From positions 62,001-126,000 of IMG/VR virus record IMGVR_UViG_3300037487_000968: a stretch of 64,000 bases of DNA; one strand, given 5' to 3'. The notes beneath the pieces were generated by a model. It was given only the letters and a program-made list of their open reading frames with translations. It was not told the DNA's origin and ran no database searches. This DNA comes from a virus. How positions within the stretch are numbered: position 1 is the stretch's first letter; each line of letters opens with the position of its first letter. Below, one piece after another: positions 8,652 through 61,653 of this stretch. The position numbers and the translations under genes were made by a program.

Positions 8652-8653
8652 AT

Positions 8654-12539: not shown

Positions 12540-13335
12540 TAAAAAAACAATTGTGGTTTGCGGGGACAGTTTTAATTACGGAATAGGTTGCGTAAATCAA
12601 CATACCCAGCCGTATGGAGTATTAACAGCCAAACATTTTGACTGGGATTTAGTTAGACTAGCAAGAGGTAGTGCAAGTAATTATGTTATACACCTACAAG
12701 GAAAATATGCAGCAAGAATGAATCCAAAACCGCATCTTGTAATACTAGGAACAACATCATATGATAGGCTAGAGTGGTTGGCAACAGGTAAAGAATTTAA
12801 AGGCGAACCCCGCCTTGAGGATGTTAATTATCATTTATATCCGCCACACCATCATCCTCAACCATTACACGATGCGCCAATGCCGTACCATCTTGCTGGG
12901 GATCCAAACTATCAACCTAAGATATTGAGCGAACAAATGGTCGCTATACCTGATTTTTTACATCATATCAAAACCTCGGGCTATGCAATAGATTATTATA
13001 AAAGATTACATAGTGAATCTATAGAAAAATTAAACCTAATTAATACCTATTACTTTGATATATTTGACTCTCTTATAAAAAGGGATTATGATGTAGGGGT
13101 AATATCAATGGCATATAGAATAATAAAAAATGCCGGCATTAATTGTGTTATATGCTCGCAAGAAAGTCAGTTTAAAGAATTAGTGGAAGATGAGAGAGAT
13201 TATTTCTTCCCTGATTGGGGTAGATGTACTGCAACCTGGCCAGATTCGGTAGGTAGTCTGCACACTGGCGAAGGCGGTCACAAAGATATAGCCAATCGTT
13301 TAATAAGTCATATTGAAACATATAACTTAGCCTGA
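12532..13335 (+). CDS. SGNH-hydrolase-like protein, 267 aa
   Basis: IVVCGDSFNYGIGC at residues about 6-19 is a good block I of SGNH hydrolases. LHTGEGGH near the C-terminus can hold the His. An internal HHHPQP-type stretch is unusual. It overlaps the fusion gene by 8 bp. Likely role, by family, is acyl transfer to or from a glycan. Confidence 0.6.
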   Translation: MTDKKTIVVCGDSFNYGIGCVNQHTQPYGVLTAKHFDWDLVRLARGSASNYVIHLQGKYAARMNPKPHLVILGTTSYDRLEWLATGKEFKGEPRLEDVNYHLYPPHHHPQPLHDAPMPYHLAGDPNYQPKILSEQMVAIPDFLHHIKTSGYAIDYYKRLHSESIEKLNLINTYYFDIFDSLIKRDYDVGVISMAYRIIKNAGINCVICSQESQFKELVEDERDYFFPDWGRCTATWPDSVGSLHTGEGGHKDIANRLISHIETYNLA

Positions 13336-13343
13336 GAATTATA

Positions 13344-14090
13344 ATGAAATTAGCTATATATGGAGATAGTTTTGCAGCACATCAATTGCATATTAAGGAT
13401 AATAACGGAAAAATATTACAAGAACATCTGGGTCGAGGTTGGCCAGAGATTTTGGAAGATTATCACGAAGTTAATAATTTTGGATCGTCCGGCACAGCAT
13501 TTATGTACAGCTACGAATTATTCCTAAAGAATTATAAAGATTATGATTTGAATATTTTTATTGCTACTTCACCACAAAGAACATACGTAAGAGCACTAGA
13601 TGGAAGATTAGTATTTGGGATAGACTTTGTGGATGAAGAGGTTGAACGAATTAAGAAAGCGCCATTTTATAATAGAAAATATATACACTTAGAGATACTA
13701 AAGAGTGTAAGAATATATTTAGAATTATGGCAGGATATAGAGTTATTACGTTACGCTCAACATGCAATGGTTAATAATTTATGGAATCTTGCCCCTAATA
13801 CACTAGTTATACCTGCATTTGAAGACTCGATAGAACAAACATGTTTTAATCTAAATGATTTATCTAGACAAGAATTAGATAATGTTGAAAATGGCTTATA
13901 TAGAAAACTTAACTATCCTGTAATGAAATGTTTAAGGAAGTGCCATTTTTCGGAAGAAAATAATAAGATATTAGCAAAATATATATTATCTGCAATAGAA
14001 TCAAATCAGAAGATATTTGAACTCGGCCATGCCGAGTTGGCGGTGCCTTCTAAAAATTTTAATTTTTATATGGAAGACAGTGAATTATGA
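13344..14090 (+). CDS. SGNH-hydrolase-like protein, 248 aa
   Basis: LAIYGDSFAAHQ at the N-terminus is the catalytic-Ser block, and the FGSSGTAF segment fits the Gly block. No clear Asp-x-x-His block is visible near the end, so activity is uncertain. It is the third consecutive SGNH-like unit. Its stop overlaps the cupin start by 4 bp. Confidence 0.55.
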   Translation: MKLAIYGDSFAAHQLHIKDNNGKILQEHLGRGWPEILEDYHEVNNFGSSGTAFMYSYELFLKNYKDYDLNIFIATSPQRTYVRALDGRLVFGIDFVDEEVERIKKAPFYNRKYIHLEILKSVRIYLELWQDIELLRYAQHAMVNNLWNLAPNTLVIPAFEDSIEQTCFNLNDLSRQELDNVENGLYRKLNYPVMKCLRKCHFSEENNKILAKYILSAIESNQKIFELGHAELAVPSKNFNFYMEDSEL

Positions 14091-14521
14091 AAAAAGTGTC
14101 AAAGCCATGGGGGTACGAGTTATGGATAGCCGATGGAGTCGATACTCCATATGCAAGTAAGCGTATATTATTTAAGGCAGGGAATAGAACTAGTCTGCAA
14201 GTCCACGAATACAAAATTGAAACAAATTATGTTCTTAGTGGATCGGGAATATTACATCGCAGTAAAGAGCCATTAGATCTAATTGTATTCATGCAGAATG
14301 GGATGACAGCACAACAGGTAAAAGATTACGAAGACACCTTTGAAGTAGTAGATCTGCATGAAGGGGTAATATTCAACATAACACCGGGATATGTGCATCG
14401 GGTTATTGCCATTACAAATTTAGAATTCATGGAAACAAGTACAACAGAGCTCGATGATGTTATTAGATTACAAGATGACACAGGAAGAGAACACGGTAGG
14501 ATATTAAAAGAACATGAATGA
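14087..14521 (+). CDS. Phosphomannose-isomerase type II-like cupin, 144 aa
   Basis: KPWGYELW followed by a strand with LQVHEYKIETNYVLSG matches the cupin domain at the end of ManC/type II phosphomannose isomerases, with His, Glu and Lys positions available for metal and substrate. It is one isolated cupin, without the GDP-mannose pyrophosphorylase part, and overlaps a nucleotidyltransferase gene by 8 bp. Probably a sugar-phosphate isomerase or epimerase of the pathway. Confidence 0.7.
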   Translation: MKKVSKPWGYELWIADGVDTPYASKRILFKAGNRTSLQVHEYKIETNYVLSGSGILHRSKEPLDLIVFMQNGMTAQQVKDYEDTFEVVDLHEGVIFNITPGYVHRVIAITNLEFMETSTTELDDVIRLQDDTGREHGRILKEHE

Positions 14522-16040
14522 TCTAACCGTTCTTATACTTGCTGCAGGCTACGGTCGCCGCATGGGCCCGTTCTCAAGAATGGTCAATAAGAGCCTTGTT
14601 CCTTACGATAACAAGCCATTAATTAGCCATATAATGGCTAAATTTGACCCTAATACAAAATTTGTTATCGCGTGTGGCAACATGGGTCAACAAGTTAAAG
14701 ACTATATGTTAAATGTACATTCTGAGAAAAATATAACTTTTGTTGATATACCCGAGTTTGATGAAGGCAATACGGGACCTGCCACAACTATAAAATATTG
14801 TGCAGAATATTTGCCAGAAAAATTTCTATGGATTACATGCGATACCTTGTTTGAATTTAATCTTGCTGATAAACTAGACCATAATTGGATTGCTGTATCG
14901 CCTGTAGATAGCACGGTGGCGCAGGATTATTGTTGGATAGAAAGAGATGGAGATACCATTGTAAAAATTCATAATAAGAAAAGATCTTCACATGCTGTTG
15001 ATGCATTTATTGGACTGATGTATGTCAACGATTCACAATTTATTAATAACCTTATTGACTCTAAAGCAAAAGATGCATATGAAGGGTTTAACAACATCGA
15101 TCTAAGAGCTTATACAGTAAGATCTTGGCAAGATTTTGGAACATATGAAAAATGGAAAATGCTTAGTGAAGGCTTACCTGAAGTAAGTTTTCCAAAGCCG
15201 GATGAACTATTCTACAGAGACAACAATAAAATTATTAAATTTACAACTGATGAAAAATTAGCACGCTTAAGGCACGAAAGAGCTCTTCTAAATCCATTAT
15301 GTATGCCCGCTAATGTTGTTCATAAAGGCAACTTTCTTATATATGATTATGCTGTTGGCGAAACACTATATACATGCCTCACACCTGAATTATTTAACAA
15401 ATTTATGAATTGGGCAGAAACAAAATTATGGAATCATGCAGGGACATTCGGTGATACATTTGGATATGCAGATAAGTTTTATCATAAGAAAACATTAGAG
15501 CGTCTAGAAAAATTTAGAGTAAAATATAGTACGTGGGTAGAATTTTCTATAGTAAACGGCCGAGATGTAAAAACAATAAAAGAATACATGTCTGAAATCG
15601 ACTTCACATGGCTAGCATCAGAAACAGAATGGAGATTTACTCACGGGGATATGCAGTTTGATAATATTATATATAATTCTATAACCGAACAATTTACAGC
15701 GATAGATTGGAGGACAGATTTTGCAGGAGACCAATACGGCGACATGTATTATGATTTAGCCAAGATGCTAGGTGGTCTATACCTAAGTTATAAATCTATA
15801 AAAGAAGATAAGTTTAGTTATGAAGAAAATGATGATCAGGCTATCATCGACTTCCCTTCAGTTGATCATGTAAATATATATGTATCACAATTGCAGGAAC
15901 GGGTTATGGCAATGGGTTATGATTGGCAAAAAGTAAAAACACTCGTGCCTATTATATATCTTAACATGGCTCCCTTACATACCGCACCTTTTGATAAATT
16001 CTTAATCGCATTGGCACAACTTTTCTTCTCGCAACTATGA
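14514..16040 (+). CDS. Fusion: sugar/choline-type nucleotidyltransferase plus APH/choline-kinase-like domain, 508 aa
   Basis: Residues about 4-230 carry LILAAGYGRRMGP and NKSLVP, the nucleotide-binding loop and following Lys of NTP transferases. From about residue 260 a kinase-like domain follows, with THGDMQFDNI (H-x-D-x4-N catalytic loop) and AIDWRTD in place of the DFG-like metal loop. The pairing recalls LicC- and LicA-type activities in one chain: phosphorylation of a small alcohol or sugar and its activation with CTP or another NTP. Substrate not determinable. Confidence 0.72.
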   Translation: MNDLTVLILAAGYGRRMGPFSRMVNKSLVPYDNKPLISHIMAKFDPNTKFVIACGNMGQQVKDYMLNVHSEKNITFVDIPEFDEGNTGPATTIKYCAEYLPEKFLWITCDTLFEFNLADKLDHNWIAVSPVDSTVAQDYCWIERDGDTIVKIHNKKRSSHAVDAFIGLMYVNDSQFINNLIDSKAKDAYEGFNNIDLRAYTVRSWQDFGTYEKWKMLSEGLPEVSFPKPDELFYRDNNKIIKFTTDEKLARLRHERALLNPLCMPANVVHKGNFLIYDYAVGETLYTCLTPELFNKFMNWAETKLWNHAGTFGDTFGYADKFYHKKTLERLEKFRVKYSTWVEFSIVNGRDVKTIKEYMSEIDFTWLASETEWRFTHGDMQFDNIIYNSITEQFTAIDWRTDFAGDQYGDMYYDLAKMLGGLYLSYKSIKEDKFSYEENDDQAIIDFPSVDHVNIYVSQLQERVMAMGYDWQKVKTLVPIIYLNMAPLHTAPFDKFLIALAQLFFSQL

Positions 16041-16732
16041 GTCAGTTTTTCAGTTTAAGTAGATATCCTGGCAAGACAGGAGAGTACTTCTTTAACTCAA
16101 TGTTCAAGAAATTTAGCATGCCTCATACATATACAGCTCTAGCATGTGATAATATTGCCGACGGTGTTAAAGATATGGCAGAAAGAAATGCTGCAGGATT
16201 TAGTGTTAGTATGCCATTTAAATCCGATGTAATAAAAGAAATAAACTTTATCGAAAATACAGTAGCTCGGTTTAATAGCTGTAACACTGTTTATCATGCG
16301 TCCGATGGATGGCACGGATACAATACAGATTACTTTGGTGCATATCATGTACTTCAACAGGTACCCAATAATGCAAAAGTATCCATCCTTGGCGACGGTG
16401 TTATGGGATCAATGTTTAAGAAAATATTAGGTGATGGAGCAACCATATATGCAAGAAAGTTAGGTAATTGGGAACAGAGATATAGGGCCGATGATGTCAT
16501 AATTAATTGTACATCTTTTGGTACAGCAAGAGAGGATTCACCCTTCAACATTCTTCCGTCTGCAAATCTAATAATAGATCTTGCAATCAAATCAAATCAG
16601 TTAGAACAACAATCTATTGCTGCAGATGTTAAATACACAGGCGGTATGGAATTCTATAAGCATCAGTTTATAAGACAGTTTGGAATTTATACAAAGAAAG
16701 TGATTACAATAGAAGATGTAAATAGCATATGA
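16037..16732 (+). CDS. Shikimate-dehydrogenase-like reductase, 231 aa
   Basis: GFSVSMPFK (K62) corresponds to the GxNVTxPxK catalytic-Lys motif of shikimate dehydrogenases. NTVYHASDGWHGYNTDY holds the Asn and Asp (about N83, D98) that bind the substrate, and VSILGDGVMG is the NADP-binding loop. It is shorter than typical AroE (about 270 aa). In this sugar-like operon it more likely reduces a related polyol or quinate-like intermediate than serves aromatic synthesis. Confidence 0.7.
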   Translation: MSQFFSLSRYPGKTGEYFFNSMFKKFSMPHTYTALACDNIADGVKDMAERNAAGFSVSMPFKSDVIKEINFIENTVARFNSCNTVYHASDGWHGYNTDYFGAYHVLQQVPNNAKVSILGDGVMGSMFKKILGDGATIYARKLGNWEQRYRADDVIINCTSFGTAREDSPFNILPSANLIIDLAIKSNQLEQQSIAADVKYTGGMEFYKHQFIRQFGIYTKKVITIEDVNSI

Positions 16733-17208
16733 TTAAACACATAGTAATGGATGTAGACGGTGTCCTTAATACAGGACATTTTTTATATAGTGATAAAGGA
16801 AAGATATTTAAAGTCTTTGGTCCGCATGATAAAGATGGTATTAAAATTGCTCAAAAATTAGGTCTTACTATTGATTTCATAACAGCTGATAAATCAGGAT
16901 GGGAAATAACATGCGCTAGATTAATTAAAGATTGGGGATTCACAAAGACTAGTGTTCATTTAGTTACTGAAGAAGATAGAATGGCATGGATCGAAGAGAG
17001 GTATAACCCGGAAGAAGTGGCATATATAGGTGACGGAATTCACGATGCGCCTATATTACAAAAAGTAGCAATAGGCATTGCACCCAATAGTGCCAGAAGA
17101 GAAGCAAAGGAATCAGCTAACTATATTACAGAAAGCAATGCCGGTTCGGGTGCTGTTCTTGATGCTATTCTTATAATACAAAAGATATTAACAAATGAAA
17201 AATTATAA
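16729..17208 (+). CDS. KdsC-like HAD phosphatase, 159 aa
   Basis: MDVDGVLNTG with D8 and D10 is HAD motif I. A late GDGIHDAPI is motif IV. The length and lack of a cap domain fit the KdsC family (C0 HAD phosphatases acting on 3-deoxy-octulosonate-8-P or N-acylneuraminate-9-P). It overlaps both neighbours. With a downstream aldolase and an upstream nucleotidyltransferase it suggests synthesis of a ketose-acid-like sugar. That link is inference. Confidence 0.8.
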   Translation: MIKHIVMDVDGVLNTGHFLYSDKGKIFKVFGPHDKDGIKIAQKLGLTIDFITADKSGWEITCARLIKDWGFTKTSVHLVTEEDRMAWIEERYNPEEVAYIGDGIHDAPILQKVAIGIAPNSARREAKESANYITESNAGSGAVLDAILIIQKILTNEKL

Positions 17209-18181
17209 ATTAGGTGTAGGCCCTATGAGTCGAGAGATTATCGGATGTATTAGCGAATATGGAGATCGCAATAATTTAATGGTAGTCGCATCTCGTAATC
17301 AAGTTGATTATAATTCTGGTTATGTATGTACATCTACGGAATTAGCAGAATTAATACTTAATCCTGCTACACTTATTTGTAGAGATCATTGCGGGCCATA
17401 CTTCAGTGATTCAGATAAGGGGTTATCTGTAAGTGATGCAATGGACGAATGTAAGAAAACTATAGAACAAGATATCAGCGCAGGGTTTGATCTTATACAC
17501 ATAGATGTTTCTAGAATACCCGATAAACAATTAATATATGCTAAAGAATTAATTGAATTCACCTTACATCTTAGTCCTAATATTATGTTGGAATTTGGGA
17601 GTGAAAATAATACAGGGACAGATTTAGCACCTAGCATGGCTCGTATAGATGAACAACTAGATTTCATCGGTCAATACAAAGATAATATTGTATTTTTTGT
17701 AACACAAACCGGTAGTTTTACTCAACATACGCAGGTAGGATCGTTTGATATTGATTTTACTAAACTTTTGGCGAAGAAAATACACGATGCAGGGTTTTTA
17801 TTTAAAGAACATAATGCTGATTATCTTACTCATAGCGATGTCAAATTACGTGGTCCAGGTGGCGTTGATGCGCTAAATATAGCACCCCAACTAGGTACCA
17901 TCCAAACAAAGATTTTGAAGGAATTATCTAATAATAGTATCGCCTGGCAAGATTTTGCGAAGATAGTTTATAATTCGAATCTCTGGACAAAATGGATACC
18001 GAAAAACATAAATGACCCGGCATTAGCGGTTATTGTTGCAGGACATTATATGTTTAACACACCACAATATAAACAGCTAATGAGCACAATAGATAAAGAA
18101 TTATTTATGGTACAATTGAAAAAAGAATTATTTAAAACATTAGATGTATATACAGGAGGTAATAATGACACTGCTCACTAA
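17195..18181 (+). CDS. GatZ/KbaZ-like class II aldolase subunit, 328 aa
   Basis: VVASRNQVD, a Gly-Tyr pair, then LICRDHCGPYFSD resemble the NQV...GG and GDHLGP motifs of tagatose-bisphosphate aldolase accessory subunits (GatZ, KbaZ), and FKEHNADYLT is also typical. In those enzymes it is a chaperone-like subunit for GatY. No GatY is visible here, so it may act alone. It follows the KdsC-like gene with a 14-bp overlap. Confidence 0.65.
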   Translation: MKNYKLGVGPMSREIIGCISEYGDRNNLMVVASRNQVDYNSGYVCTSTELAELILNPATLICRDHCGPYFSDSDKGLSVSDAMDECKKTIEQDISAGFDLIHIDVSRIPDKQLIYAKELIEFTLHLSPNIMLEFGSENNTGTDLAPSMARIDEQLDFIGQYKDNIVFFVTQTGSFTQHTQVGSFDIDFTKLLAKKIHDAGFLFKEHNADYLTHSDVKLRGPGGVDALNIAPQLGTIQTKILKELSNNSIAWQDFAKIVYNSNLWTKWIPKNINDPALAVIVAGHYMFNTPQYKQLMSTIDKELFMVQLKKELFKTLDVYTGGNNDTAH

Positions 18182-18290
18182 GATTAGAGATTTTATCGTA
18201 TACCGGTTATTTGGTAAATTGACTAGGGAAATTAAATATCGTAAACGATTAAAAGAAATGCGTAAACGCGACCCATTTATCTACAAATAA
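18165..18290 (+). CDS. Small basic protein, 41 aa
   Basis: A strong Shine-Dalgarno AGGAGG lies 6 bp before ATG 18165. The product is very basic and likely helical (repeated Arg and Lys, ending RDPFIYK). It overlaps the aldolase end by 17 bp in another frame and is followed by the cobalamin-type radical-SAM gene. Function unknown. It is the only peptide-sized gene next to the radical-SAM genes, so it is the best, though weak, candidate for a peptide substrate. Confidence 0.6.
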   Translation: MTLLTKIRDFIVYRLFGKLTREIKYRKRLKEMRKRDPFIYK

Positions 18291-18313
18291 ACATCAATAA
18301 TATACCGAACATT

Positions 18314-20497
18314 ATGCACGAATTAGAAATATATAAAAACACAAACGCAACGGCTCGTCCCATGGAACCTGACGCCGATGTAAAACATCTTGCAATGTTA
18401 CAGGCTATTGCGCCATTTGCCAAGAGCAAGGTTCAGAAGAATATGACTACAATCGATGTAGATTATGCTCATCGTAATACAAAATTAATGCTTATTTTAA
18501 TGCCAGAATGGGCAGAAATGTTTCCTCCGTTTAATTTAGCAAGATTATCAGCAGTTGCTAAAAAGGCCGGTTACAAAACTAAATGCCTTGATCTTAATAT
18601 AGCAGCATACAGAACTATGAGAGATCCGGTGAAGAGTGGAGCAATTGCATATGATCCATGGGATGGTACAAGAGAGTGGACTTGGAGAGAAGCCACATAT
18701 TATACTGATATCCATCCACATTTAGAGACATTATACAGAAATTATATAGAAGAGATTAAGAAATTTAATCCTACTGTTATAGGCTTCACTATGTATTATT
18801 GTAATGAACAACCAGTCCTCTGGTTGGCCGCCGAATTAAAAAAGGCTATACCGGGTATTAAGTTAGTGGTTGGTGGCAGTAATATTCATAATAATAGTGG
18901 TAACTTTAAAGATAATGTATTTGATTACGTTGTTAGTGGCGAAGGCGAGATGATGATTCTAGAGATTCTAGAAGAAATTGAACAACATAAAACATACGAT
19001 ACCGTACAGATTAGACGCCAACCCGAAGAACAACGACTAAACCTTAATGAGTTACCGTTACCAGATTATACAGATTTTAACTTTAATGAATATATGATGC
19101 CAAACGGCGTATGTAGTGAATTAAGCAGAGGGTGTACAGCAAAGTGTACATTCTGTGATGAAACACATTTCTGGAAATATCGCCAGCGTATGGCGACAGA
19201 TATACTGAAGGAAGTAGAATCGTTATACTATTCAAGAGGTACAGATGTTTTCTGGTTTATCGACAGCCTTGTTAATGGTAATTTAAACGAGCTAAGGGCA
19301 TTTTGTAAAGGTGTTATAGCAAAAGAAATGAAGATACACTGGACAGGATATTGCAGATGTGATGGCAGAATGGATCTCGAATATTATCAAGATCTTGCAG
19401 ATTCCGGGTGTACGATGTTAAATTACGGAATCGAATCTGGTAGCCAAAAAGTGCTCGATGATATGGATAAGGGTGTAACCATTGCCGAAATGGAACAAAA
19501 CCTAGCAAACGGAAAGAAGACAGGAGTGCAAGCATTTACCAACTGGATTGTTGGTTTTCCCACAGAGGACTACCAGGGATTTGCTGATACAATAACATTT
19601 CTATGGCGTAACAGAAATCAAGGAATAGTTAACATAGCCGCAGGATTTGGTTATGGATTAGGTATGAATTCTATTATTGGACAAAATCCTGAAAAGTTTA
19701 ATCTATTAGATCACAAATATTTAAATGGGTGGATTACAAGAGATTTTAAATTATCTAAATTTAATGTATTAATGCGTATGAAGAGTTTTGCTATCTTCCT
19801 TCAACAATTAATAACAGAGAATCATGTCAATATTCCGCATAGAGAAAATCTGCCATTACGTCATTATAAGATTACGTTCAATAATCCGTTATTGCAGAAA
19901 GAAATAGAGTATGAACAATTCGATTACAATATTATTAAACCTAATATTAATCCACTTGCAGATAGTATAGTAAATGAAATGTTTGTTTTATTTAGAATGC
20001 TGTGGAGAATGCGAGGGAGTTTTATTGCATCTGTTGTTTTTGATGAGAAATTAGATACCGAAGAATGGGGCGGCATGCTTACAGGGCCGTTTAGCTCGTC
20101 ACACCTATTTTCAATAGATGACGCCGGGAACTGGGATGCAGATTTTTCTTTCGACTTTAAACAACCGCCTGCATTGGTATACCCGGCGGATCCTATGACA
20201 CCTAGGTCACCGTTTTTTGCTCAAGATTATTCACACGAATTATCAACTACAACAATTCGTGCAAAGAAGTTAGCACGACCTAAATGGGGTGATGGCAGTA
20301 GAAGTCACGAAGAGTTTATGGATTTAATGGTTGAGGAACGGATGCTTAATAGTACCATTGATTTCTCATTCACTTATAATTGGGTAGGATGCGGCTGCTG
20401 GGGGAATAATACCGATTACTTAATTTCTGTCCCTAATAAACATACAAACAAAGTGGCACAACAGACTGAAGATATACACTATATTAATTTTAAATGA
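18314..20497 (+). CDS. Cobalamin-binding-type (B12) radical SAM protein, 727 aa
   Basis: The N-terminal part (about 55-230) is a Rossmann-like B12-binding domain (LMLILMPEWAEMFPP, then VVGGSN and VVSGEGE). The radical-SAM motif CTAKCTFC is at residues 274-281, in the usual SRGC context. The order matches BchE-type enzymes, which often methylate unactivated carbons. The last 250 residues are not recognised. The canonical DxHxxG Co-ligand motif is not visible, which is common in this class. Confidence 0.82.
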   Translation: MHELEIYKNTNATARPMEPDADVKHLAMLQAIAPFAKSKVQKNMTTIDVDYAHRNTKLMLILMPEWAEMFPPFNLARLSAVAKKAGYKTKCLDLNIAAYRTMRDPVKSGAIAYDPWDGTREWTWREATYYTDIHPHLETLYRNYIEEIKKFNPTVIGFTMYYCNEQPVLWLAAELKKAIPGIKLVVGGSNIHNNSGNFKDNVFDYVVSGEGEMMILEILEEIEQHKTYDTVQIRRQPEEQRLNLNELPLPDYTDFNFNEYMMPNGVCSELSRGCTAKCTFCDETHFWKYRQRMATDILKEVESLYYSRGTDVFWFIDSLVNGNLNELRAFCKGVIAKEMKIHWTGYCRCDGRMDLEYYQDLADSGCTMLNYGIESGSQKVLDDMDKGVTIAEMEQNLANGKKTGVQAFTNWIVGFPTEDYQGFADTITFLWRNRNQGIVNIAAGFGYGLGMNSIIGQNPEKFNLLDHKYLNGWITRDFKLSKFNVLMRMKSFAIFLQQLITENHVNIPHRENLPLRHYKITFNNPLLQKEIEYEQFDYNIIKPNINPLADSIVNEMFVLFRMLWRMRGSFIASVVFDEKLDTEEWGGMLTGPFSSSHLFSIDDAGNWDADFSFDFKQPPALVYPADPMTPRSPFFAQDYSHELSTTTIRAKKLARPKWGDGSRSHEEFMDLMVEERMLNSTIDFSFTYNWVGCGCWGNNTDYLISVPNKHTNKVAQQTEDIHYINFK

Positions 20498-20928
20498 TAA
20501 TAAATTGTAATGGTGATAGTTTTGTATCGGGAGAAGAATTAGGCGACAACTCTTTTCCTAATTACCCTGGTAATTATCCAACTATACCCGATAAGAAATT
20601 AAGCGAAATAGTTCAATGGACTAATTTTATAAACACATTACCATTTGATCAAATATTAGAATTAAGAAATTTATATCGTACTTTTGCATTGCAATATAAT
20701 TGGCGGCCTTATAAATCGAACACGCCAAATACTGCATTAGATAACTTTAATGATTTAAAAGACCTTGTAGAATATTCAAAATTTAAATACTCGTTTGATA
20801 TAAATGAAGTAGCATTAAATAGTAATATAAAAAATATATATTGTCCAAAAGGTCATTATATTGAACAGATACACGATTTGTTAGCTGAACAAATTAGTAA
20901 TAAAATAGCTCATTTGGAGAATATATGA
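20494..20928 (+). CDS. Shortened SGNH-like protein, 144 aa
   Basis: It starts INCNGDSFVSGEELGDN, the SGNH block I, and ends with CPKGHYIEQIHDLL, which resembles the His block at the end of these enzymes. The middle is about 100 residues shorter than in the SGNH-like neighbours, so the Gly and Asn blocks are missing or reduced. The frame is intact. It could be a remnant after internal deletion or a small specialised form. 4-bp overlaps on both sides. Confidence 0.5.
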   Translation: MIINCNGDSFVSGEELGDNSFPNYPGNYPTIPDKKLSEIVQWTNFINTLPFDQILELRNLYRTFALQYNWRPYKSNTPNTALDNFNDLKDLVEYSKFKYSFDINEVALNSNIKNIYCPKGHYIEQIHDLLAEQISNKIAHLENI

Positions 20929-22397
20929 AAATAATATGGGGCATATGTGCGTTAAATCATGATGCATCAATTACTGTAATGTGCGGCAACGAAATATTAT
21001 TTGCAGGCCATGCTGAAAGATATTCACGAATTAAAAACGATCCGTATCTCAATAAAGAGTTAATTGCCGCAGCACAAAAATTTGGAACACCGTCTGAACT
21101 AGTATGGTTTGAAAAACCATACTTAAAAAAGATGAGGCAGGCGTATGCAGGTCAGTGGCAAGAAGTTAAATCCATAACTCCATCTGCTTATCTTAAATCA
21201 GTAGGGCTAAACGGCATACCAATCAAGTATAGTTCGCACCATGCATCCCATGCGGCAGCCGGCTATTTTACCTCTCCATTTAATAATGCTGCTATAGTTA
21301 TAGTAGATGCTATAGGCGAATGGGATACTATTTCTATATGGCATGCTAAAGATAACGATATGAAGAAAGTGCATTCAGTTCGTTACCCAAGCTCATTAGG
21401 TTTATTCTACTCAGCGGTTACAGATCGTATCGGTTTAAAAGCTAACGAGGAAGAGTATATACTAATGGGAATGGCTGCGTACGGCGAGCCAATTTATTAT
21501 GATGATTTGCGAAAAGATTTTATAGAAACTTGTATCGCACCCAATTTCACACTAAAAGAAAATCTCCATCGCGGCATGCGTTACTGGCGCCCAGATATTA
21601 AATCTGAGCAGGATTATATGAACCTAGCTGCTAGTATTCAAAAAATTACTGAAGAATTTATGTGTGACATAACTCGTTGGGCAAGTGAAAATATACCATC
21701 TAAGAACTTGGTATTAATGGGCGGGTGTGCATTAAATTGTGTAGCCAATGAAAAGTTAGCACGCCAAAATTTATTTAACGATATCTGGATTATGCCGAAT
21801 CCGGGTGATGCAGGTAGTTCTCTTGGGTGCATATTAGCTCACACTAAAGAAAAAGCGAACTGGGTAAATCCGTTTTTAGGCACTAGTATTAGACATATGT
21901 TTGATATTCAAGGGACCGTAGATGCATTGGTTAAGGGCGATATAATTGGTATAGCAACCGGTAAGGCAGAGTACGGTCCACGGGCATTAGGTAACAGATC
22001 GCTCGTTGCTGATCCCAGAGGCAGCACTATTAAGGATAGGGTAAATGACATAAAGAAACGTCAGCGTTTCCGGCCATTTGCACCAATGGTGTTGGAACAC
22101 GTGGCCCATGAATATTTCGATATGCCTGTAAAGACTTCACCATATATGCAGTATACGGCTAAATGTCTTCGGCCCGATCTTTATCCTGCGATATGTCATG
22201 TTGACGGAACTTCTCGGGTACAGACATTAAATTATAAACAGAACCCAGTTATGTTCAAAGTACTTGAAGAATTCTACAAAAGAACCGGTTGTCCTATTTT
22301 ATTGAATACAAGTCTTAATATCAAAGGGGAACCACTGGTCGATACATGGGCTGATGCTATAAAATTTCAAAATAAATATAAGATACAAATGTATTAA
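20925..22397 (+). CDS. NodU/TobZ-type O-carbamoyltransferase, 490 aa
   Basis: NHDASI and SHHASHAAAGY are the metal and substrate His motifs of the N-terminal NodU domain. GGCALNCVANEKL follows, and the C-terminal domain has YGPRALGNRS and RFRPFAP. These enzymes transfer carbamoyl phosphate to a sugar or antibiotic hydroxyl. It is shorter than typical members (about 570 aa), ending soon after LLNTSLNIKGEP. It closes the plus-strand operon and suggests that the product is an O-carbamoylated glycan. Confidence 0.88.
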   Translation: MKIIWGICALNHDASITVMCGNEILFAGHAERYSRIKNDPYLNKELIAAAQKFGTPSELVWFEKPYLKKMRQAYAGQWQEVKSITPSAYLKSVGLNGIPIKYSSHHASHAAAGYFTSPFNNAAIVIVDAIGEWDTISIWHAKDNDMKKVHSVRYPSSLGLFYSAVTDRIGLKANEEEYILMGMAAYGEPIYYDDLRKDFIETCIAPNFTLKENLHRGMRYWRPDIKSEQDYMNLAASIQKITEEFMCDITRWASENIPSKNLVLMGGCALNCVANEKLARQNLFNDIWIMPNPGDAGSSLGCILAHTKEKANWVNPFLGTSIRHMFDIQGTVDALVKGDIIGIATGKAEYGPRALGNRSLVADPRGSTIKDRVNDIKKRQRFRPFAPMVLEHVAHEYFDMPVKTSPYMQYTAKCLRPDLYPAICHVDGTSRVQTLNYKQNPVMFKVLEEFYKRTGCPILLNTSLNIKGEPLVDTWADAIKFQNKYKIQMY

Positions 22398-38470: not shown

Positions 38471-39313
38471 TTACTGTACTGGAACACCCACCTTGGGAGC
38501 ATTGGCAAGATAGGTCGCACGTGCCAGCTGCCGTGTGTAACCGTTAGCGGCCATCATCGCTGTGATGATCTGCTCGTAACCGTGTCCTGCACGATGCCCT
38601 GTGAGCATAATGTTGCGACTGATGGCTGCTTTGCTTGTCCCTACTATAGACGAACCAACAGTCGAAACAAACGGTGCAGGGCGCTGTACAGGAACAACTA
38701 CGGGCGCCGGGTAAGGCACACCGATGATGGTAGCCGGCTCCACTTCCTTTGTCACTGCAACCTTCTTGACTATGGGTGCAGCAAACGAACGCCCACCTGC
38801 ACCAACAATGCTGTAAGCACATTGCTGGTTAACAGTGCCCAAGCCCTTACGATAGGACAGTGTACGCCCCAACTGAACGTGCTGGTGACGCCTATCATTC
38901 AAACGCACCTTGTGCCCACGATCGGTTGTGTATTCGTACGTGGTGCCCTTACCGTACACAACATCCATGTCGTGTGTGCGGTCTCCAGTGCCACCCAATG
39001 CCCTGCAAACACGGGCCCAACCGTAGTCGTGATTGCGGCCCAATTCGGGCTTCAGGAAGCAAACGATGTGTGCAATTTCGTGCGGGACAACAACATCAAC
39101 CATTTCGTCTGTTTCACGCAACAGCATATCGTAGTTGAAACGCATATGATAGACACGGGCAAAAACGCTGCCACGAGCACAGGCCATACCACCAACACGA
39201 CCCTTCAAGTCGAAGCGAATAGCAACCTTGCTCAAGTCCACTCCGTACAGTTCCTTGGCCTTTTCAAACACTGCTTTACATTTTGTAAGCACTTGCGCTT
39301 GTGGGGTTGTCAT
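38471..39313 (-). CDS. SprT-like zinc metalloprotease, 280 aa
   Basis: VVVPHEIAHIVCF at about 75-87 gives the HExxH zinc site (H78, E79, H82), and H95 in GRNHDYGWARVCRALGG is the third ligand, as in SprT/Spartan proteases that clear DNA-protein crosslinks. N-terminal GRVGGMACA fits the family. The last 110 residues (Pro/Val linker then a helical unit ISRNIMLTGHRAGHGYEQII) are extra and could bind DNA. Own promoter, single gene. Confidence 0.85.
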   Translation of the reverse strand: MTTPQAQVLTKCKAVFEKAKELYGVDLSKVAIRFDLKGRVGGMACARGSVFARVYHMRFNYDMLLRETDEMVDVVVPHEIAHIVCFLKPELGRNHDYGWARVCRALGGTGDRTHDMDVVYGKGTTYEYTTDRGHKVRLNDRRHQHVQLGRTLSYRKGLGTVNQQCAYSIVGAGGRSFAAPIVKKVAVTKEVEPATIIGVPYPAPVVVPVQRPAPFVSTVGSSIVGTSKAAISRNIMLTGHRAGHGYEQIITAMMAANGYTRQLARATYLANAPKVGVPVQ

Positions 39314-43726: not shown

Positions 43727-43859
43727 ATTGTTCTCCTAAAACATATGGGACAGCACTAATCTAGATGCACAGCAATGCACCCTTCGCCGTATTGCTGCAC
43801 AGCCGCTTGTAAAACGTCAATGCGGTCTCATATCCTCTATGCCTTATTATAGCATAGAT

Positions 43860-44273
43860 CTAAGCGTATGCAATTTGATTTGAAGGCCAACGCTCCCTCT
43901 TTTGGTACCGCCTTAACTCGGATGCTGTACTAAACACTTCTGACGTGCTGTACATTTCATAGACTTCTGCTTCCTTTATGTGCATAATAAGCACAGGTTG
44001 GTTGCGAAACTCCTTGAATTGTGTAGCTGTAACATCAATTACATGATCTTCAACCACTACAAAGCAGTGACACTCTTGCCAAGAGCTTACCCACATATGG
44101 ATCTTTGCTTCTATTCCTTCTATATTAAGCCGTCTTTGCAGTTCTGCAGACGCAATTGCACACCACCCTTGCAGGTCGTCTGGGTTATAGTCAGAGCGGA
44201 ACGCCTTGGCTTCCACCCAGGTTCTGGTTCCGTTTGCTATAGCCGCGACAGTATCGTGAAGCATTCTGTTCAT
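43860..44273 (-). CDS. Transglutaminase/papain-like protein, 137 aa
   Basis: GWCAIASAELQRRL gives a Cys at a helix start, CHCFVVVEDHVIDVTATQF a His then Asp, the C-H-D layout of transglutaminase-like cysteine proteins. A related layout is in the gene at 53383. Probably a peptidase or an inactive relative. I start at ATG 44273, 6 nt after a TATACT box, so leaderless. The annotated longer start lies within the promoter. Confidence 0.6.
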   Translation of the reverse strand: MNRMLHDTVAAIANGTRTWVEAKAFRSDYNPDDLQGWCAIASAELQRRLNIEGIEAKIHMWVSSWQECHCFVVVEDHVIDVTATQFKEFRNQPVLIMHIKEAEVYEMYSTSEVFSTASELRRYQKRERWPSNQIAYA

Positions 44274-44279
44274 GCCACA

Positions 44280-44308
44280 AGTATAACTGGGCAAGCTCTA
44301 TCTGTCAA
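44280..44308 (-). promoter_or_regulatory. Promoter giving a leaderless mRNA for gene 43860
   Basis: TTGACA, 17 bp, TATACT. -10 ends 6 nt before ATG. Confidence 0.75.
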
Positions 44309-45576
44309 GCCCTCATTACAGTCTCGGCATTACTAGGGCAGCCCAATGATCCAGCCATGCGAGGCTACACTGTGCTGGCTCTGCCTCGGGCATTGCCCAG
44401 TAACTGGGCACGCACATCCGAGAACGAAACCCTAAGCCGCCTCGGAAGTTAGTAAGCGCCAACTAACCTTTCGAAACCCTGCCGAGAACGAAACCCTTGG
44501 ACCATTTCAGAAACCGAAACTCATATTAGATCGAAACTCGAAATCCTAATTGAAATTCGATATCCTATAATTGATTTTCTATCTTAATGAAGACCGTATG
44601 CTATATAATAGGCTAGTGTGCCGCTGCTATGTAATCAATTAGATCTTGTGCTATATAGAAGGTTTATTGCATAATCTAGCTCACGGTCAAACACTGTGTA
44701 AGCATAGGGGCAGTTAATACGTCTAGACTATAGTATAGATCATATAGTATAGGTTCTCGGATCTTACTACACATACATTGATCTAATAGAGCCGAGGTTA
44801 AGATAGAGGACAAACGGCGAAAGGGCTTATATGCCCTATTATCGAAACTCTATCCATAGCATGTCGAGACGTATCTAGACAGTGGCTCGTGCAGGCATAT
44901 ATGTAAATCAATATCACCATCTGCATTATGTGATATCCGCTCTAACTCAACTTCTATTATAGGACTCAATACCTATTGGTTAATCATTTATTATTCGCTG
45001 TTATACCTGTTTGCGAAGCGTATATAAGATAGAACTTCTAACTGCTGGCCAATGCTCGTAAGCGACTTTAAGAATAGGTGTTCTATGGTTCTATACAATG
45101 TTATTTATCACCGACCAGATCGAAACAGTATAGAAGATTAGCATAGGGGTTCGGTGATGTGGCCTTGCGTATAAGGCCACAGTGGTTAGCATAGATAACC
45201 TATGCTAAAGCAATGTCAAGAAAACCACGCGAAAAGGGGCAAGATTCTAGCTTAGAAAAGGTTTAGATAGGGTTTCGGCACCTATGCTAGATAGGTTGAA
45301 AACAATGGAAGCATTGGATACAGTGTATGCACTATGCACAAAGCAAACCGCATAGGGCTTCTATGCGCCTATTTTACACACATAGGCGCGAAATCCGCGC
45401 ACAAATCTGCGCCCAAAACCGCCCGCAGGATTCCAATTTGAAAACCTGCCGCAAAAAGGGCACCTAGGATTCCGAATCTGACCGAGAAATCTACCGAGAG
45501 AGGTTCATTCGAATATGTTCTTTAATGGTGCGTTCTGGATATTGCACAATACCACACTTTATTGCACTTCATTGCA
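44309..45576. other. 1.27-kb gene-free region with hairpin units and repeats
   Basis: No reading frame of note. CTCG-type units: 44321-44365, 44383-44422, 44439-44486 and 44753-44798. CCGAGAACGAAACCC occurs twice (about 44418, 44482). Perfect hairpins: GTGGCCTT/AAGGCCAC (45159/45173) and TTAGCATAG/CTATGCTAA (45186/45200). Short AGCATAG words recur (44699, 45138, 45189). It could hold a replication origin or packaging-related site. That is a guess from AT-richness and repeats. Confidence 0.6.
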
Positions 45577-45834
45577 CTAAGGCTGAAGATCGTGCTCCTT
45601 TATTCTGCGTTGTAAAGCCTTTAAGGAGCGTTCTACAAACTCGTACCACACTCTTGATTTCATATTAGGGCCGCCATTCATGAAGCTGTATATGCTAGTA
45701 GGATTCGATAATACAGGGTCTATATCTAAGTCTTCACTACACCATTTCCACAATATAATGGACGGAATACGCTCTAGATCTTCTAATAGAAATCGATCAT
45801 CTATTGGGTATGCTATAACATCAAATAGACTCAT
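45577..45834 (-). CDS. MSLFD-family array member 6, 85 aa
   Basis: Start at the conserved MSLFD (45834). The longer frame has 6 extra residues (MNTKKK). Family pattern: MSLFDVIAYP, a Leu/Glu-rich helix with ERIPSIILWKW, a variable middle. Overlaps the upstream member by 14 nt. Unknown function. Confidence 0.7.
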   Translation of the reverse strand: MSLFDVIAYPIDDRFLLEDLERIPSIILWKWCSEDLDIDPVLSNPTSIYSFMNGGPNMKSRVWYEFVERSLKALQRRIKEHDLQP

Positions 45835-46024
45835 TTTCTTCTTCGTATTCAATAATTATTTGCTTTAAGCGACGAACACCTTCTTGATTACATAGAGTTT
45901 GAGTACCCATTGAATAAGCTTCATATCTCCATTTATCAATAAAATGTCTAGGAACACCGTGATGATGAACTCTGGATTCATTGTCTAAATAGATATTGTA
46001 TTTTATAATATCAAATAGGCTCAT
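45821..46024 (-). CDS. MSLFD-family array member 5, 67 aa
   Basis: MSLFDIIKYNIYLD, VPRHFIDKWRYEA, C-terminal EYEEENESI. The last residues are encoded by the same bases as the next gene's MSLFD start. 14-nt overlap. Confidence 0.72.
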   Translation of the reverse strand: MSLFDIIKYNIYLDNESRVHHHGVPRHFIDKWRYEAYSMGTQTLCNQEGVRRLKQIIIEYEEENESI

Positions 46025-46271
46025 ATTCAGCTATAGCCTTTCTTGCTTGTTTGATTTTATCTGTATTCGGTATGTCACGTTCGCTGCGCCACAAGTAACC
46101 ATAATAAATATGGTTTGAAAGAAGTTTTATATTGAACGCTCTTGTGCTTATATCTTTTCTTACACCGAATATATCGAACATCTTTGATATCAGATCATCA
46201 GGCATTCTAGCAAATTCTTCATGTGTTGGTATATCACTTAATGGATATCGTAATACATCAAATAGGGTCAT
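46011..46271 (-). CDS. MSLFD-family array member 4, 86 aa
   Basis: MTLFDVLRYPLSDIPTHEEF, ARMPDDLISKM, C-terminal AIAEYEPI. 14-nt overlaps on both sides. Confidence 0.72.
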   Translation of the reverse strand: MTLFDVLRYPLSDIPTHEEFARMPDDLISKMFDIFGVRKDISTRAFNIKLLSNHIYYGYLWRSERDIPNTDKIKQARKAIAEYEPI

Positions 46272-46458
46272 TGTATTCCGATAGAAGTGTTATTAGGATA
46301 TTGCGAATTTGTTCCGGTGGCTTGTTGAATTTATTATTATTAGAAAGGCCGTTCCAATATCTTGTGTATCTATAGCGAATTTGTTCCGGTAGGGCTTCGA
46401 ACTCTTTAACCATCACTGGAATGCTTAACGGATACTTGATAACATCAAATAGACTCAT
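46258..46458 (-). CDS. MSLFD-family array member 3, 66 aa
   Basis: Start placed at MSLFDVIKYPLS (46458). The longer frame adds MLSGMI. EALPEQIRYRYTRYW, ending LLSEYNDPI. 14-nt overlaps. Confidence 0.72.
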   Translation of the reverse strand: MSLFDVIKYPLSIPVMVKEFEALPEQIRYRYTRYWNGLSNNNKFNKPPEQIRNILITLLSEYNDPI

Positions 46459-46720
46459 AATCATCCCACTTAGCAATAAGTCTTCTAAGAAAGTCTATTT
46501 CCATTTTATCTACATTCATTGCAACAATAACTTCGGGCGTGAGTAGGGCACTTCGTGGTCGCGCATACCAAGCTGAGACACCTTCAATTGATATTGTGCT
46601 ATGTTGTTTCCATACAGTATGATCTCTCCACTGTTGGATTATCTGTTGTGGTACTCGCTGTAATTCTTCTACAGTGGGTTTATTGCTTATCGGATATCTA
46701 ATAGCATCAAATAGGCTCAT
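46445..46720 (-). CDS. MSLFD-family array member 2, 91 aa
   Basis: MSLFDAIRYPISNKPTVEEL, RVPQQIIQQWRDHTVW, ending KWDDYESI. ATGA overlap with member 1, 14-nt overlap with member 3. Confidence 0.72.
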   Translation of the reverse strand: MSLFDAIRYPISNKPTVEELQRVPQQIIQQWRDHTVWKQHSTISIEGVSAWYARPRSALLTPEVIVAMNVDKMEIDFLRRLIAKWDDYESI

Positions 46721-46926
46721 TGTTGCCCTGCTATGTTATTATCGGAATCGTTGTGCTTGAGCATCAAGTATCTAACTATTTGATAAGCGACAGGCCCGTA
46801 TGCGTCGAATTCGGGTTTGCGATTTAATTCGTGGACTTGATTTAATACTGCGGAAGGTAAGGCACAGTATTCCGCCGCAGTGGGAGGATTGCTTATTGGA
46901 TATCTTAGTATATCAAATAGGCTCAC
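46717..46926 (-). CDS. MSLFD-family array member 1, 69 aa, GTG start
   Basis: Family alignment puts the start at GTG 46926 (VSLFDILRYPISNPPTAAEY), giving a 4-nt overlap with the upstream stop. An ATG at 46953 adds 9 residues. Unlike the others its C-terminus (NNIAGQQ) is not the YE-S/P-I signature, and its overlap with the next gene is ATGA. Confidence 0.65.
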   Translation of the reverse strand: MSLFDILRYPISNPPTAAEYCALPSAVLNQVHELNRKPEFDAYGPVAYQIVRYLMLKHNDSDNNIAGQQ

Positions 46927-47111
46927 TCTATCACTCGTAATACTTTTAACCATTTATTGAAATCACGCAGCTTCCATTGGCCGGTCTTAACCCATTCAAA
47001 TACATGGCTCGTACTTATACCGGCTATCTGATCGTCAGTAAGCCTGTTTTCGTGCTTAATGTCTTCAGAACGAATTTTACGAGCGATGCGAGCTTCTAGT
47101 TCAGGTATCAT
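46923..47111 (-). CDS. Hypothetical protein, 62 aa
   Basis: EARIARKIRSEDIKHENRLT, LTDDQIAGISTSHVFEWV. The second part resembles a helix-turn-helix-type segment. Leads into the array. Overlaps both neighbours by 4 nt. Unknown function. Confidence 0.65.
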   Translation of the reverse strand: MIPELEARIARKIRSEDIKHENRLTDDQIAGISTSHVFEWVKTGQWKLRDFNKWLKVLRVIE

Positions 47112-47365
47112 TCCACACCTCTCTGAATGTAAATTTCGCCGTCAAGTTTAAGGCTCCAATGTGTTCCGGGGCGATAGCTTTTGTCAGCTTCGGTTGCTTG
47201 GAAGGTCTTGCGATTTATCTTTGTGACGACTGCTGTCACATGATAATGGCCACCACGACCGCGTCCGTTGCAGGTAAATTCTACCTTGTCACCAACATAG
47301 AGTGAATGGATTGGTACTTCTTCGTACACCCAACCAAGCAACTGAGTAAGGGTCTTAGTTTTCAT
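47108..47365 (-). CDS. Hypothetical protein, 85 aa
   Basis: KTKTLTQLLGWVYEEVPIHS, then a beta-rich, Gly/Arg section (FTCNGRGRGGHYHVTAVV) that could be a small barrel. First gene of the 47365-45577 operon. Unknown function. Confidence 0.67.
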   Translation of the reverse strand: MKTKTLTQLLGWVYEEVPIHSLYVGDKVEFTCNGRGRGGHYHVTAVVTKINRKTFQATEADKSYRPGTHWSLKLDGEIYIQRGVE

Positions 47366-47395
47366 ATAACTGTCTTTGTTTGCTGCAATGAGTGT

Positions 47396-47424
47396 ATTAT
47401 ATACTGGATGTTGGATGGTGTCAA
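47396..47424 (-). promoter_or_regulatory. Promoter for the 47365-45577 operon
   Basis: TTGACA, 17 bp, TATAAT. Confidence 0.8.
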
Positions 47425-47427
47425 CTA

Positions 47428-47622
47428 CTAACAGATAACAATGCCGGCAATTTCATATGCCTTGTTGCGTAGTTCCTCATCTCGGTCCATAGGGACATTC
47501 ATGTAATGATCGAATCCCATTTCTTTTGCTGCTCTCTTAAGGCAGACCGTCCAGCAAGGACGAATTGTATATGTGGCAGGATTACGTCTTAGTGAAGAAT
47601 CTGCTTGTCCCATATCGATCAT
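47428..47622 (-). CDS. Hypothetical protein, 64 aa
   Basis: Start at ATG 47622 behind TTAGGAGTTACT. IDMGQADSSLRRNPATYTIR, then KRAAKEMGFDHYMNV. Unknown function. Confidence 0.65.
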   Translation of the reverse strand: MIDMGQADSSLRRNPATYTIRPCWTVCLKRAAKEMGFDHYMNVPMDRDEELRNKAYEIAGIVIC

Positions 47623-47630
47623 AGTAACTC

Positions 47631-47795
47631 CTAAAGCGAAGCACAATCAACTGGAACATCGGCAAGGAGAACAGTTACTTCCCAAGACTTCTTGGCCTTG
47701 AAAAACTTTGCTGCTTCTTGTTGTGCTGCATAGGAGGTTTCAGCAATAACGGTAACCGTCTTGCCTTTGTAGAATGCTTTGTATGTACGCATCAT
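47631..47795 (-). CDS. Hypothetical protein, 54 aa
   Basis: MRTYKAFYKGKTVTVIAETS then YAAQQEAAKFFKAKKSW: the beta-beta-alpha layout of small phage 'YKG' proteins. Start 47795 or 47792. The longer frame is promoter. Confidence 0.65.
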   Translation of the reverse strand: MMRTYKAFYKGKTVTVIAETSYAAQQEAAKFFKAKKSWEVTVLLADVPVDCASL

Positions 47796-47822
47796 TGACC
47801 TATTGTTTGTTTGTGTAAATGT

Positions 47823-47851
47823 ATTATACAATAGGATCAACCTACTGTCAA
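47823..47851 (-). promoter_or_regulatory. Promoter for genes 47795 and 47622
   Basis: TTGACA, 17 bp, TATAAT. -35 overlaps the TGA of the upstream gene. Confidence 0.8.
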
Positions 47852-48093
47852 GCCTTAGATTTACGATCGAGCACTTGACTTTTCAGTGCAGTCAGCACGT
47901 TGATTGCAGTGTCGAAATTGTCCTTGCTGGGCCGTGTCTTACACAGTTCAACATAGAAGTCCAGGTCTTCCCAATCCACGTCACCTATGTTTTGCCAGTT
48001 AGCGGAAGGACGGTCAGCTATCTTTTTCGCCATCTTTACTTGCAGGGCTTTCGCATTGGCTTCAACTTGTGCTGCCCATACTTCATCTACCAT
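47848..48093 (-). CDS. Hypothetical helical protein, 81 aa
   Basis: VDEVWAAQVEANAKALQVKM, then DFDFYVELCK-like aromatic section (WEDLDFYVELCKTRP). Last gene of a run of five overlapping genes upstream. Unknown function. Confidence 0.67.
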   Translation of the reverse strand: MVDEVWAAQVEANAKALQVKMAKKIADRPSANWQNIGDVDWEDLDFYVELCKTRPSKDNFDTAINVLTALKSQVLDRKSKA

Positions 48094-60231: not shown

Positions 60232-61653
60232 TTACTGTTGGGCTAGGTAGTTTACCAACACACTTGCATTCGGTACGCCGAGCCCGGTAACAAGATCGTA
60301 CCCGGTCTTTGCAGCGTTGCCATTAGATCCAGTCAATACATCGCCGAATGCTGTGGCATAATAGCCGGGGACAGATGCTACAGTGTATAGGCCTGCGGTA
60401 AAGTTGATAATCGATTTGCTATTTTCAGCTCGGACTGCCCGAGTAATTGCAGCGATCCCTGCCCACTGTGGCGCTCCAAGACTAGTCCCATATCCACCAT
60501 ACCAACCGCAGCTATTAGCACCTTTGGTCTTTACACACGAAGCATCTGGTACCCACGTACTAGGTGTAATATATACTGACATCGCACTAGCACTGTCTCC
60601 ATTATAAGCTACATCGGGTACCGCTCGAGTTGGGCTACCCGAGATAGATTGCCACGCAGGTGCTGTATAGTAGGCAGACAAGCCTCCCCCACTTCCACTC
60701 CATCCTACATCAACAAGCCCCTTATTGTTAGTTCCGCCTACTGAAAGTACCTTTGTAGAAACCGCTGGCCAGAGTGGAACACTCCTATCGCCTGATGCTG
60801 CAACATAAGTGACATTCGAATTAGTGAATCCGATAGTATCATATCCGCCGGCAGTTCCAGCAGCCGCAGGCCCATAAAGAAGTGTGGTGGTTTGTTTGAA
60901 AGATGTGCAAGTGGGTGAAATTCCGCCTCCTCGAATTGTAGGACAACCTGCTGCGAAAGCAGATTCTGGAGCACCCCAACTCATTGAAACAACATCAGCG
61001 AATGTGCTCGCATATTGCGTGGCATACGACAAGGCACTCACAAAATTATTCGGAGCCTGAACAAGCACAATAGATGCCATAGGAGCCATTGCGTGAGCCC
61101 ATTCAATGTCCATTGTGGACTCTGCCATCCAATTTCCGTCTGCGCTTACCCATGCACTTGTGCCACCATCGTTGCCGATTACATATGGTTCACCAGTTGA
61201 GGTGACGTTAATAACCTGGAAAGTACAACCGTCACCTGCTAGAGGTTTTGGCGTATTTGGTAAGAACGTCTTGGCTACGAGATCTTTCGTAAATACAGTT
61301 TTCACTACTGTACAAGGAGCCAATCCATGCTGTGCTGAAAACTTGGCAAGATCAGCAGCGGCATTTGGGTTATTGTATGCGCTAATAATAGCGATAACCT
61401 GCCCCGAACCTTGCTGTGCGGGCGTTGTAAGCCCGTCAAACCCGTAACGGGTGCGGATGAAGCTAGGCGACTGTCCTATACCAATTACTCCACCGGACGT
61501 TCTCATGGTTGCCGCTTCGGTCATCTTGGCAATTGATGCCATTGGGGACATTTGAATGTCTCCCGATGCTACAGAGGGATCGTTACCCCCACCCCCACAC
61601 GCTGCCAACAAAGCGGCCGACATGATACTTGCTACGATAAGTTTACTTTTCAT
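60232..61653 (-). CDS. S53 (sedolisin-type) serine peptidase lipoprotein, 473 aa
   Basis: Lipoprotein signal with LAAC lipobox (C19), Gly/Ser spacer, then a mature S53 peptidase. Glu178 and Asp182 in AESTMDIEWAHAM, Asp289 in AASGDRS, and Ser391 in GYGTSLGAPQWAG fit the Glu-Asp-Ser triad plus oxyanion Asp of sedolisins. A pro-domain is short or absent. It would act in the periplasm or outer membrane, perhaps on host envelope proteins. Secreted S53 enzymes are usual in bacteria and fungi, rare in phages, so it may be host-derived. Confidence 0.88.
   Translation of the reverse strand: MKSKLIVASIMSAALLAACGGGGNDPSVASGDIQMSPMASIAKMTEAATMRTSGGVIGIGQSPSFIRTRYGFDGLTTPAQQGSGQVIAIISAYNNPNAAADLAKFSAQHGLAPCTVVKTVFTKDLVAKTFLPNTPKPLAGDGCTFQVINVTSTGEPYVIGNDGGTSAWVSADGNWMAESTMDIEWAHAMAPMASIVLVQAPNNFVSALSYATQYASTFADVVSMSWGAPESAFAAGCPTIRGGGISPTCTSFKQTTTLLYGPAAAGTAGGYDTIGFTNSNVTYVAASGDRSVPLWPAVSTKVLSVGGTNNKGLVDVGWSGSGGGLSAYYTAPAWQSISGSPTRAVPDVAYNGDSASAMSVYITPSTWVPDASCVKTKGANSCGWYGGYGTSLGAPQWAGIAAITRAVRAENSKSIINFTAGLYTVASVPGYYATAFGDVLTGSNGNAAKTGYDLVTGLGVPNASVLVNYLAQQ

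Follow-up and report, generated by a model that had tools for sequence, protein, structure and literature searches.

The window analysed here is a 64,000-nt stretch, corresponding to bases 62001-126000 of a 210,450-bp phage record from IMG/VR (IMGVR_UViG_3300037487_000968, hereafter G000). Six paralogous open reading frames of 66-91 aa, A to F, lie on its minus strand at 45577-46926 (Table 1), all of them present as described in the sequence-only reading that was followed up. The encoded proteins start with MSLFD, except for D (MTLFD). No close orthologue of the diverged gene E was found among the compared family members. Gene F is not followed by a family member and lacks the ..PI tail. A seventh, distant family copy is located elsewhere in the record (G000:C1:129837-129526), and it has orthologues in two related records, G001 and G002.

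Downstream of a promoter at 47424-47396 come an 85-aa gene, a 62-aa gene and then the array; no promoter was found inside the window array. An almost identical promoter and first gene are found upstream of the G001 and G002 arrays. Judged by its consensus, the promoter would fit an early operon transcribed by the host polymerase. Between positions 2221 and 63775 of the window, 52 near-perfect promoters (TTGACA-N16..18-TATAAT, 0 or 1 mismatch) were counted, compared with 0-5 in shuffled sequences. They are mostly on the minus strand from 29 kb on, and in many cases a repeated leader, ACATCGCAACAAGGAG, comes next, ahead of small genes. A stretch of about 1.3 kb directly beyond the array (44300-45576) has no convincing genes, and the arrays of the related records G002 and G005 likewise end beside stretches with few or no open reading frames. 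Rfam gave no match at 43800-48000.

Table 1 Promoter, genes and overlaps of the array, with positions in the window.
Feature	Position	Strand	Details
Promoter	47396..47424	-	perfect sigma-70-type, TTGACA-N17-TATAAT; nearest upstream of the array
First operon gene	47108..47365	-	85 aa, MKTKTLTQLLGWVYEEV...; conserved upstream of the G001, G002 and G004 arrays
62-aa operon gene	46923..47111	-	upstream of A, MIPELEARIARKIRSEDIK...; also precedes the G002 and G004 arrays
62-aa gene/A overlap	46923..46926	-	4 nt, GTGA
Gene A	46717..46926	-	69 aa, GTG start, MSLFDILRYPIS..., array head; family HMM 45 bits
A/B overlap	46717..46720	-	4 nt, ATGA; closed by the second out-of-frame stop in the start motif
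Gene B	46445..46720	-	91 aa; 60% identity to the G001 and G002 orthologues
B/C overlap	46445..46458	-	14 nt, ATGAGTCTATTTGA
Gene C	46258..46458	-	66 aa; 89% identity to the G002 orthologue; dN/dS ~0.18
C/D overlap	46258..46271	-	14 nt, ATGACCCTATTTGA
Gene D	46011..46271	-	86 aa, MTLFD start; 73% identity to the G002 orthologue; dN/dS ~0.19
D/E overlap	46011..46024	-	14 nt, ATGAGCCTATTTGA
Gene E	45821..46024	-	67 aa; diverged family member
E/F overlap	45821..45834	-	14 nt, ATGAGTCTATTTGA
Gene F	45577..45834	-	85 aa, last gene; C-terminus KEHDLQP

At four of the internal junctions (B/C, C/D, D/E and E/F), the overlap is exactly 14 nt (ATGANYCTATTTGA), as had been noted; the fifth, A/B, overlaps by 4 nt. 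At the four, the upstream proteins end in YESI, NDPI, YEPI and NESI, respectively, followed by the stop. The pattern ATGANNHTNTTYGA occurred seven times in the 210-kb record, always on the array strand: at the five starts of B to F, at the distant seventh copy and at one unrelated gene. Its reversed control occurred once, and the 14-nt start motif exceeds chance expectation in G000. An MTLFD gene at G000:C1:144789-144802 (L013), which overlaps by 14 nt but lacks the family body, was judged to be a chance occurrence.

Relatives were searched with a 34-row family profile over whole IMG/VR records. The family was detected in eight of them, namely G000 (7 matches), G001 (4), G002 (8), G003 (8), G004 (6), G005 (13), G006 (5) and G007 (1). 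A query of viral contigs with a single member returned no relatives, but an alignment query did find some. At the sensitivity used, no convincing relative was detected among INPHARED phages (tblastn with three members) or plasmids (tblastn with one member), and none in GTDB representative genomes by DNA pattern or alignment. The family is thus real and recurrent, rare in the searched collections and so far confined to uncultured phages. Neighbouring genes loosely tie the phage to large myoviruses; an AAA-type ATPase encoded nearby has 42% identity to one from Pseudomonas phage PA5oct.

Across the arrays, 37 of the 38 counted junctions had overlaps of 4, 11 or 14 nt. The 14-nt class was the largest (23 junctions), followed by 4 nt (13), one 11-nt overlap and one 2-nt gap. 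This count comprises 35 junctions scored by script, including ten 4-nt ones, and three further 4-nt junctions: two flanking a diverged member in G006 and one following an internal-stop copy in G003. The same type of 14-nt junction recurs in the arrays of G001, G002, G004 and G005, and at two junctions of G003.

The start motif closes both other reading frames. In ATGANNNTNTTTGA, the second frame stops at the TGA of bases 2-4 and the third frame at the TGA of bases 12-14, so that only an upstream gene in the same frame would be fused. The 11-nt overlap is the same cassette less one codon (ATGATATTTGA, MIFD). The Phe codon of the start was TTT in 23 of 23 14-nt-class starts and TTC in 7 of 10 4-nt-class starts. 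With TTC, which most G003 and G006 starts carry, the motif lacks the 14-nt stop and the upstream gene ends at the 4-nt one. Since the arrays of these two records are mainly of the 4-nt type and do not conserve a CTA codon at Leu3, the 14-nt form is not essential. The tandem arrangement also functions with 4-nt and 11-nt overlaps.

The bases within the 14-nt class revealed which of the two frames is constrained. Base 6 (C in 14, G, T and A in three each) and base 9 (A in 18, C in five) are silent in the start frame and alter the upstream tail. Bases 8 and 11, which are third positions of tail codons and second positions of start-frame codons, were T in 23 of 23. Variation was seen at bases silent for the start frame and at none of those silent only for the tail, which indicates that constraint acts on the start frame, with the tail as its consequence. 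An example is gene B, with the tail DDHL in G001 and DDYL in G002, where the corresponding ACC and ACT both encode Thr in the next start. The constancy of the AGY codon at Ser2 is weak evidence, because more than one step separates AGY from TCN. The base pattern supports the view that the last three or four residues of the 14-nt-overlapped genes are a read-out of the next start.

A helix motif, L..I.E[YWH], is found just before the tail, and most genes without a follower, whether last or solo, also have it. Hence, the C-terminal helix is not imposed by the overlap. The conserved C-terminus is two things, an imposed tail and an intrinsic helix. The earlier proposal that the C-terminus is dictated by the next start thus holds for the last three to four residues, but not for the helix L..I.E[YW].

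Copy number and gene order differ among G000, G001 and G002, while the modules remain orthologous. The orders are A-B-C-D-E-F in G000, A-B-F in G001 and A-F2-B-D-C-X-F in G002. Between G001 and G002, identity was 95% for A, 90% for B and 94% for F; between G000 and G002, the orthologues of B, C and D had the identities given in Table 1. Gene A of G000 is not close kin to A of the other two. Decayed copies were also seen, one with an in-frame TAA in G003 (L071:2254-2529) and one with an apparent frameshift in G005 (L075:4085-4400).

The break points were mapped at these three closely related records. In six pairs with the same upstream gene and a different follower, identity was 0.80-0.97 in the 40 nt before the ATG and 0.26-0.54 past base 14. 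In six pairs with a different upstream gene and the same follower, the corresponding values were 0.23-0.42 before and 0.65-0.98 after. Identity breaks within ~15-25 nt of the start codon in these 12 comparisons. When B/F of G001 is compared with X/F of G002, the start variant goes with the upstream gene, which places the exchange in TTTGATGTTAT, just past the overlap start. These losses, gains and re-orderings among closely related records, broken at the start cassette, bear out the modular character first suggested for the array. Selection against chimeras could nevertheless account for breaks at gene ends, instead of a preference for crossover in the cassette.

For the B, C and D orthologue pairs, dN/dS was 0.17-0.35, which shows that the modules are maintained proteins. 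Shine-Dalgarno-like sequences are embedded within the upstream genes. The mean anti-Shine-Dalgarno pairing at internal starts was -4.05 kcal/mol, compared with -1.52 kcal/mol at control sites, which were same-phase positions inside upstream genes (Mann-Whitney p 6e-10, with junctions that are not independent of each other). Among overlapping genes, overlaps of 4 nt and 1 nt are by far the commonest, and reinitiation is strongly distance-dependent (PMC10666635, PMC6728339, PMC3887535). Coupling of array translation by termination-reinitiation would be likely with this arrangement and with no promoter inside the window array.

Two AlphaFold2 models, of gene B (pLDDT 82.7) and of a second protein (pLDDT 81.6), were all helical. 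Model confidence was low in the N-terminal ten residues and in the C-terminal tail, which are the overlap-encoded parts. In the protein sequences, the ends are conserved and the middle is variable. Foldseek searches against PDB and BFVD returned nothing at E<=0.001 (best VIA-align Z 2.2). Searches of 48 members against Pfam, PHROGs, NCBIfam and PADLOC gave only weak matches, with no family hit by more than 1-2 members. The Thoeris inhibitor Tad6 (PF25188) matched F2 of G002 alone, at 21.1 bits, below the cut-off of 27, and no member from the eight records exceeded it. Sequence matches to PDB entries, a leucine-rich-repeat protein and a designed protein, were weak or covered no self-standing stretch, and were discarded. 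In the literature on phage paralogue arrays, no description of the MSLFD family was found. By these searches, the MSLFD proteins appear to be a new orphan family. The early-type operon, the fast turnover of the repertoire and the purifying selection on each module suggest host-directed binding proteins. The MSLFD proteins may act as small binders of host functions, defence possibly among them, a role that we consider conceivable but rather doubtful.

Similar endings were seen in other small proteins. An unrelated one at L014:1796-2035 (minus strand) ends with RHKWLKMLIKEYETK, near the C-terminal helix motif of the family, and distant kinship or convergence would both be possible. At L021:9298-11439, two other small gene families (MSYTKQNRK... 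and MILPN...) alternate in a tandem array, and one of them ends with a similar HEWLDQLISEF motif.

We consider it probable that this locus, the last part of an early-type operon, is built of modules that encode small, mainly helical phage proteins and are joined through start/stop cassettes. Each gene would begin with such a cassette, in which ATGAGCCTATTTGAT encodes MSLFD and carries a stop in each other frame: the TGA at base 2 would give the 4-nt overlap and the TGA at base 12 the 14-nt overlap. An out-of-frame upstream gene would be closed within 14 nt, whatever gene enters, and the last residues of its protein would follow incidentally from the next start. Crossing over from one cassette to another would leave two intact genes, so that any modules could be joined. 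Such crossovers would be made by homologous recombination inside the cassette. Copies are gained, lost and re-ordered, and some decay, giving related phages different repertoires from one pool. Translation would be coupled by termination-reinitiation, and the products may interact with the host early, with a separate target for each module. The array had also been called self-propagating. Its operon consists only of the 85-aa and 62-aa genes and A-F, with no mobile or recombinase gene of its own, and no operon gene matched a recombinase, transposase or nuclease family. The term is unsupported, since homologous recombination between cassettes suffices.

A more specific proposal is that the MSLFD start is a coding recombination cassette conserved at the DNA level, and that frame-safe exchange builds host-interaction repertoires. 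We put it forward tentatively, as quite possible. The main alternative, which we regard as rather unlikely, is that of ordinary tandem paralogues. Here, MSLFD would be kept for the sake of the protein, overlaps would result from phage compaction, and re-ordering would occur anywhere, with only gene-end events surviving. The 14-nt overlap would then simply be the earliest phase-1 stop available within the motif. A gene that runs into MSLFD in the third frame is bound to end at TTTGA, and 4-nt overlaps, the commonest prokaryotic class (PMC3887535, PMC10666635), suffice in the G003 and G006 arrays. Against ordinary paralogues, the start shows far less variation at synonymous positions than the gene bodies do, even where no overlap forces it. 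Leu3 is encoded by CTA in 20 of 22 genes from the AT-rich records, compared with 20% of gene-body Leu codons, and in six of the seven starts free of 14-nt forcing (two of these being orthologues). Junctions of different records were on average ~0.8 identical across their first 18 nt; at some 30-60 nt upstream the value was ~0.3, and on the downstream side it ranged from 0.3 to 0.7. Furthermore, the N-terminus is the least confident part of both structure models, which offers no structural reason for its conservation.

Programmed +1 frameshifting at the overlap, fusing neighbouring modules into polyproteins, is very improbable. CTT precedes the TGA at five of the 23 14-nt junctions, and B/D of G002 reads GAC TAT CTT TGA, in which TAT CTT TGA resembles a release-factor-2 frameshift site. 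However, 18 of the 23 junctions read ATT TGA, which is expected to slip less, the CTT arises from ATC or CTC codons of the next start, and the internal ribosome-binding sequences indicate separate starts. Least probable of all is selection on the (Y/N)(E/D)(S/P)I tail itself, for example as a binding or degradation tag kept by the overlap: several genes have similar tails, but these change freely (EPI, ESI, ELI, DDI, DYL, DHL, DNL, VTL) with silent or conservative changes in the next start, are missing from genes without a follower or with 4-nt overlaps, and have low confidence in the structure models.

The array joined by start/stop cassettes is a new variant of overlapping, shuffled gene arrays. 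Termination-reinitiation has been described at short overlapping gene pairs (Huber et al. 2019, PMC6728339; 2023, PMC10666635), which share with the array the co-directional arrangement, interleaved stop and start, embedded Shine-Dalgarno sequences and 4-nt ATGA overlaps. Unlike these pairs, the array has mostly 14-nt phase-1 overlaps, at 23 junctions of one paralogous family, and its stop is supplied by the conserved coding motif of the next gene. A model of overlap origin shares the rule that overlap length is set by the out-of-frame stops of the downstream gene (PMC3887535); in the array, the 5' ends are near-constant, so that one length is reused after any gene.

Immunity-gene arrays of polymorphic toxin systems are rows of small, diverged paralogues with varying repertoires. 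The MSLFD array resembles them in its rows of small diverged paralogues and differing repertoires, but no sequence relation was found, and it lies in a phage early-type operon with overlapping coding junctions. Lambdoid phages have short conserved boundary sequences between modules, where exchanges join different genes. The MSLFD boundary, in contrast, belongs to two coding regions simultaneously and preserves the frame of each. Integron cassettes are somewhat like the proposed MSLFD cassette, which has no integrase and whose junction lies inside both genes.

The array provides a clear natural example, repeated at many junctions, of a gene start that sets how the preceding gene ends, and the sequence itself shows which way the constraint runs. 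If the cassette reading is true, it would provide a simple rule by which phages shuffle small genes with frames intact. The orphan family would be a good candidate for host-takeover or counter-defence proteins.

Elsewhere in the window, a cluster at 2465-22397 resembles, from its sequence, several radical-SAM-type proteins with cysteine motifs and glycan-type enzymes; a nucleotidyltransferase and a carbamoyltransferase were confirmed there by Pfam. A lipoprotein-like open reading frame at 60232-61653 contains GTSLGAPQWAG and resembles a sedolisin-type serine peptidase, with no Pfam match at 0.001. A SprT-like metallopeptidase gene at 38471-39313 has relatives in Pseudomonas, Aeromonas and Cronobacter phages.
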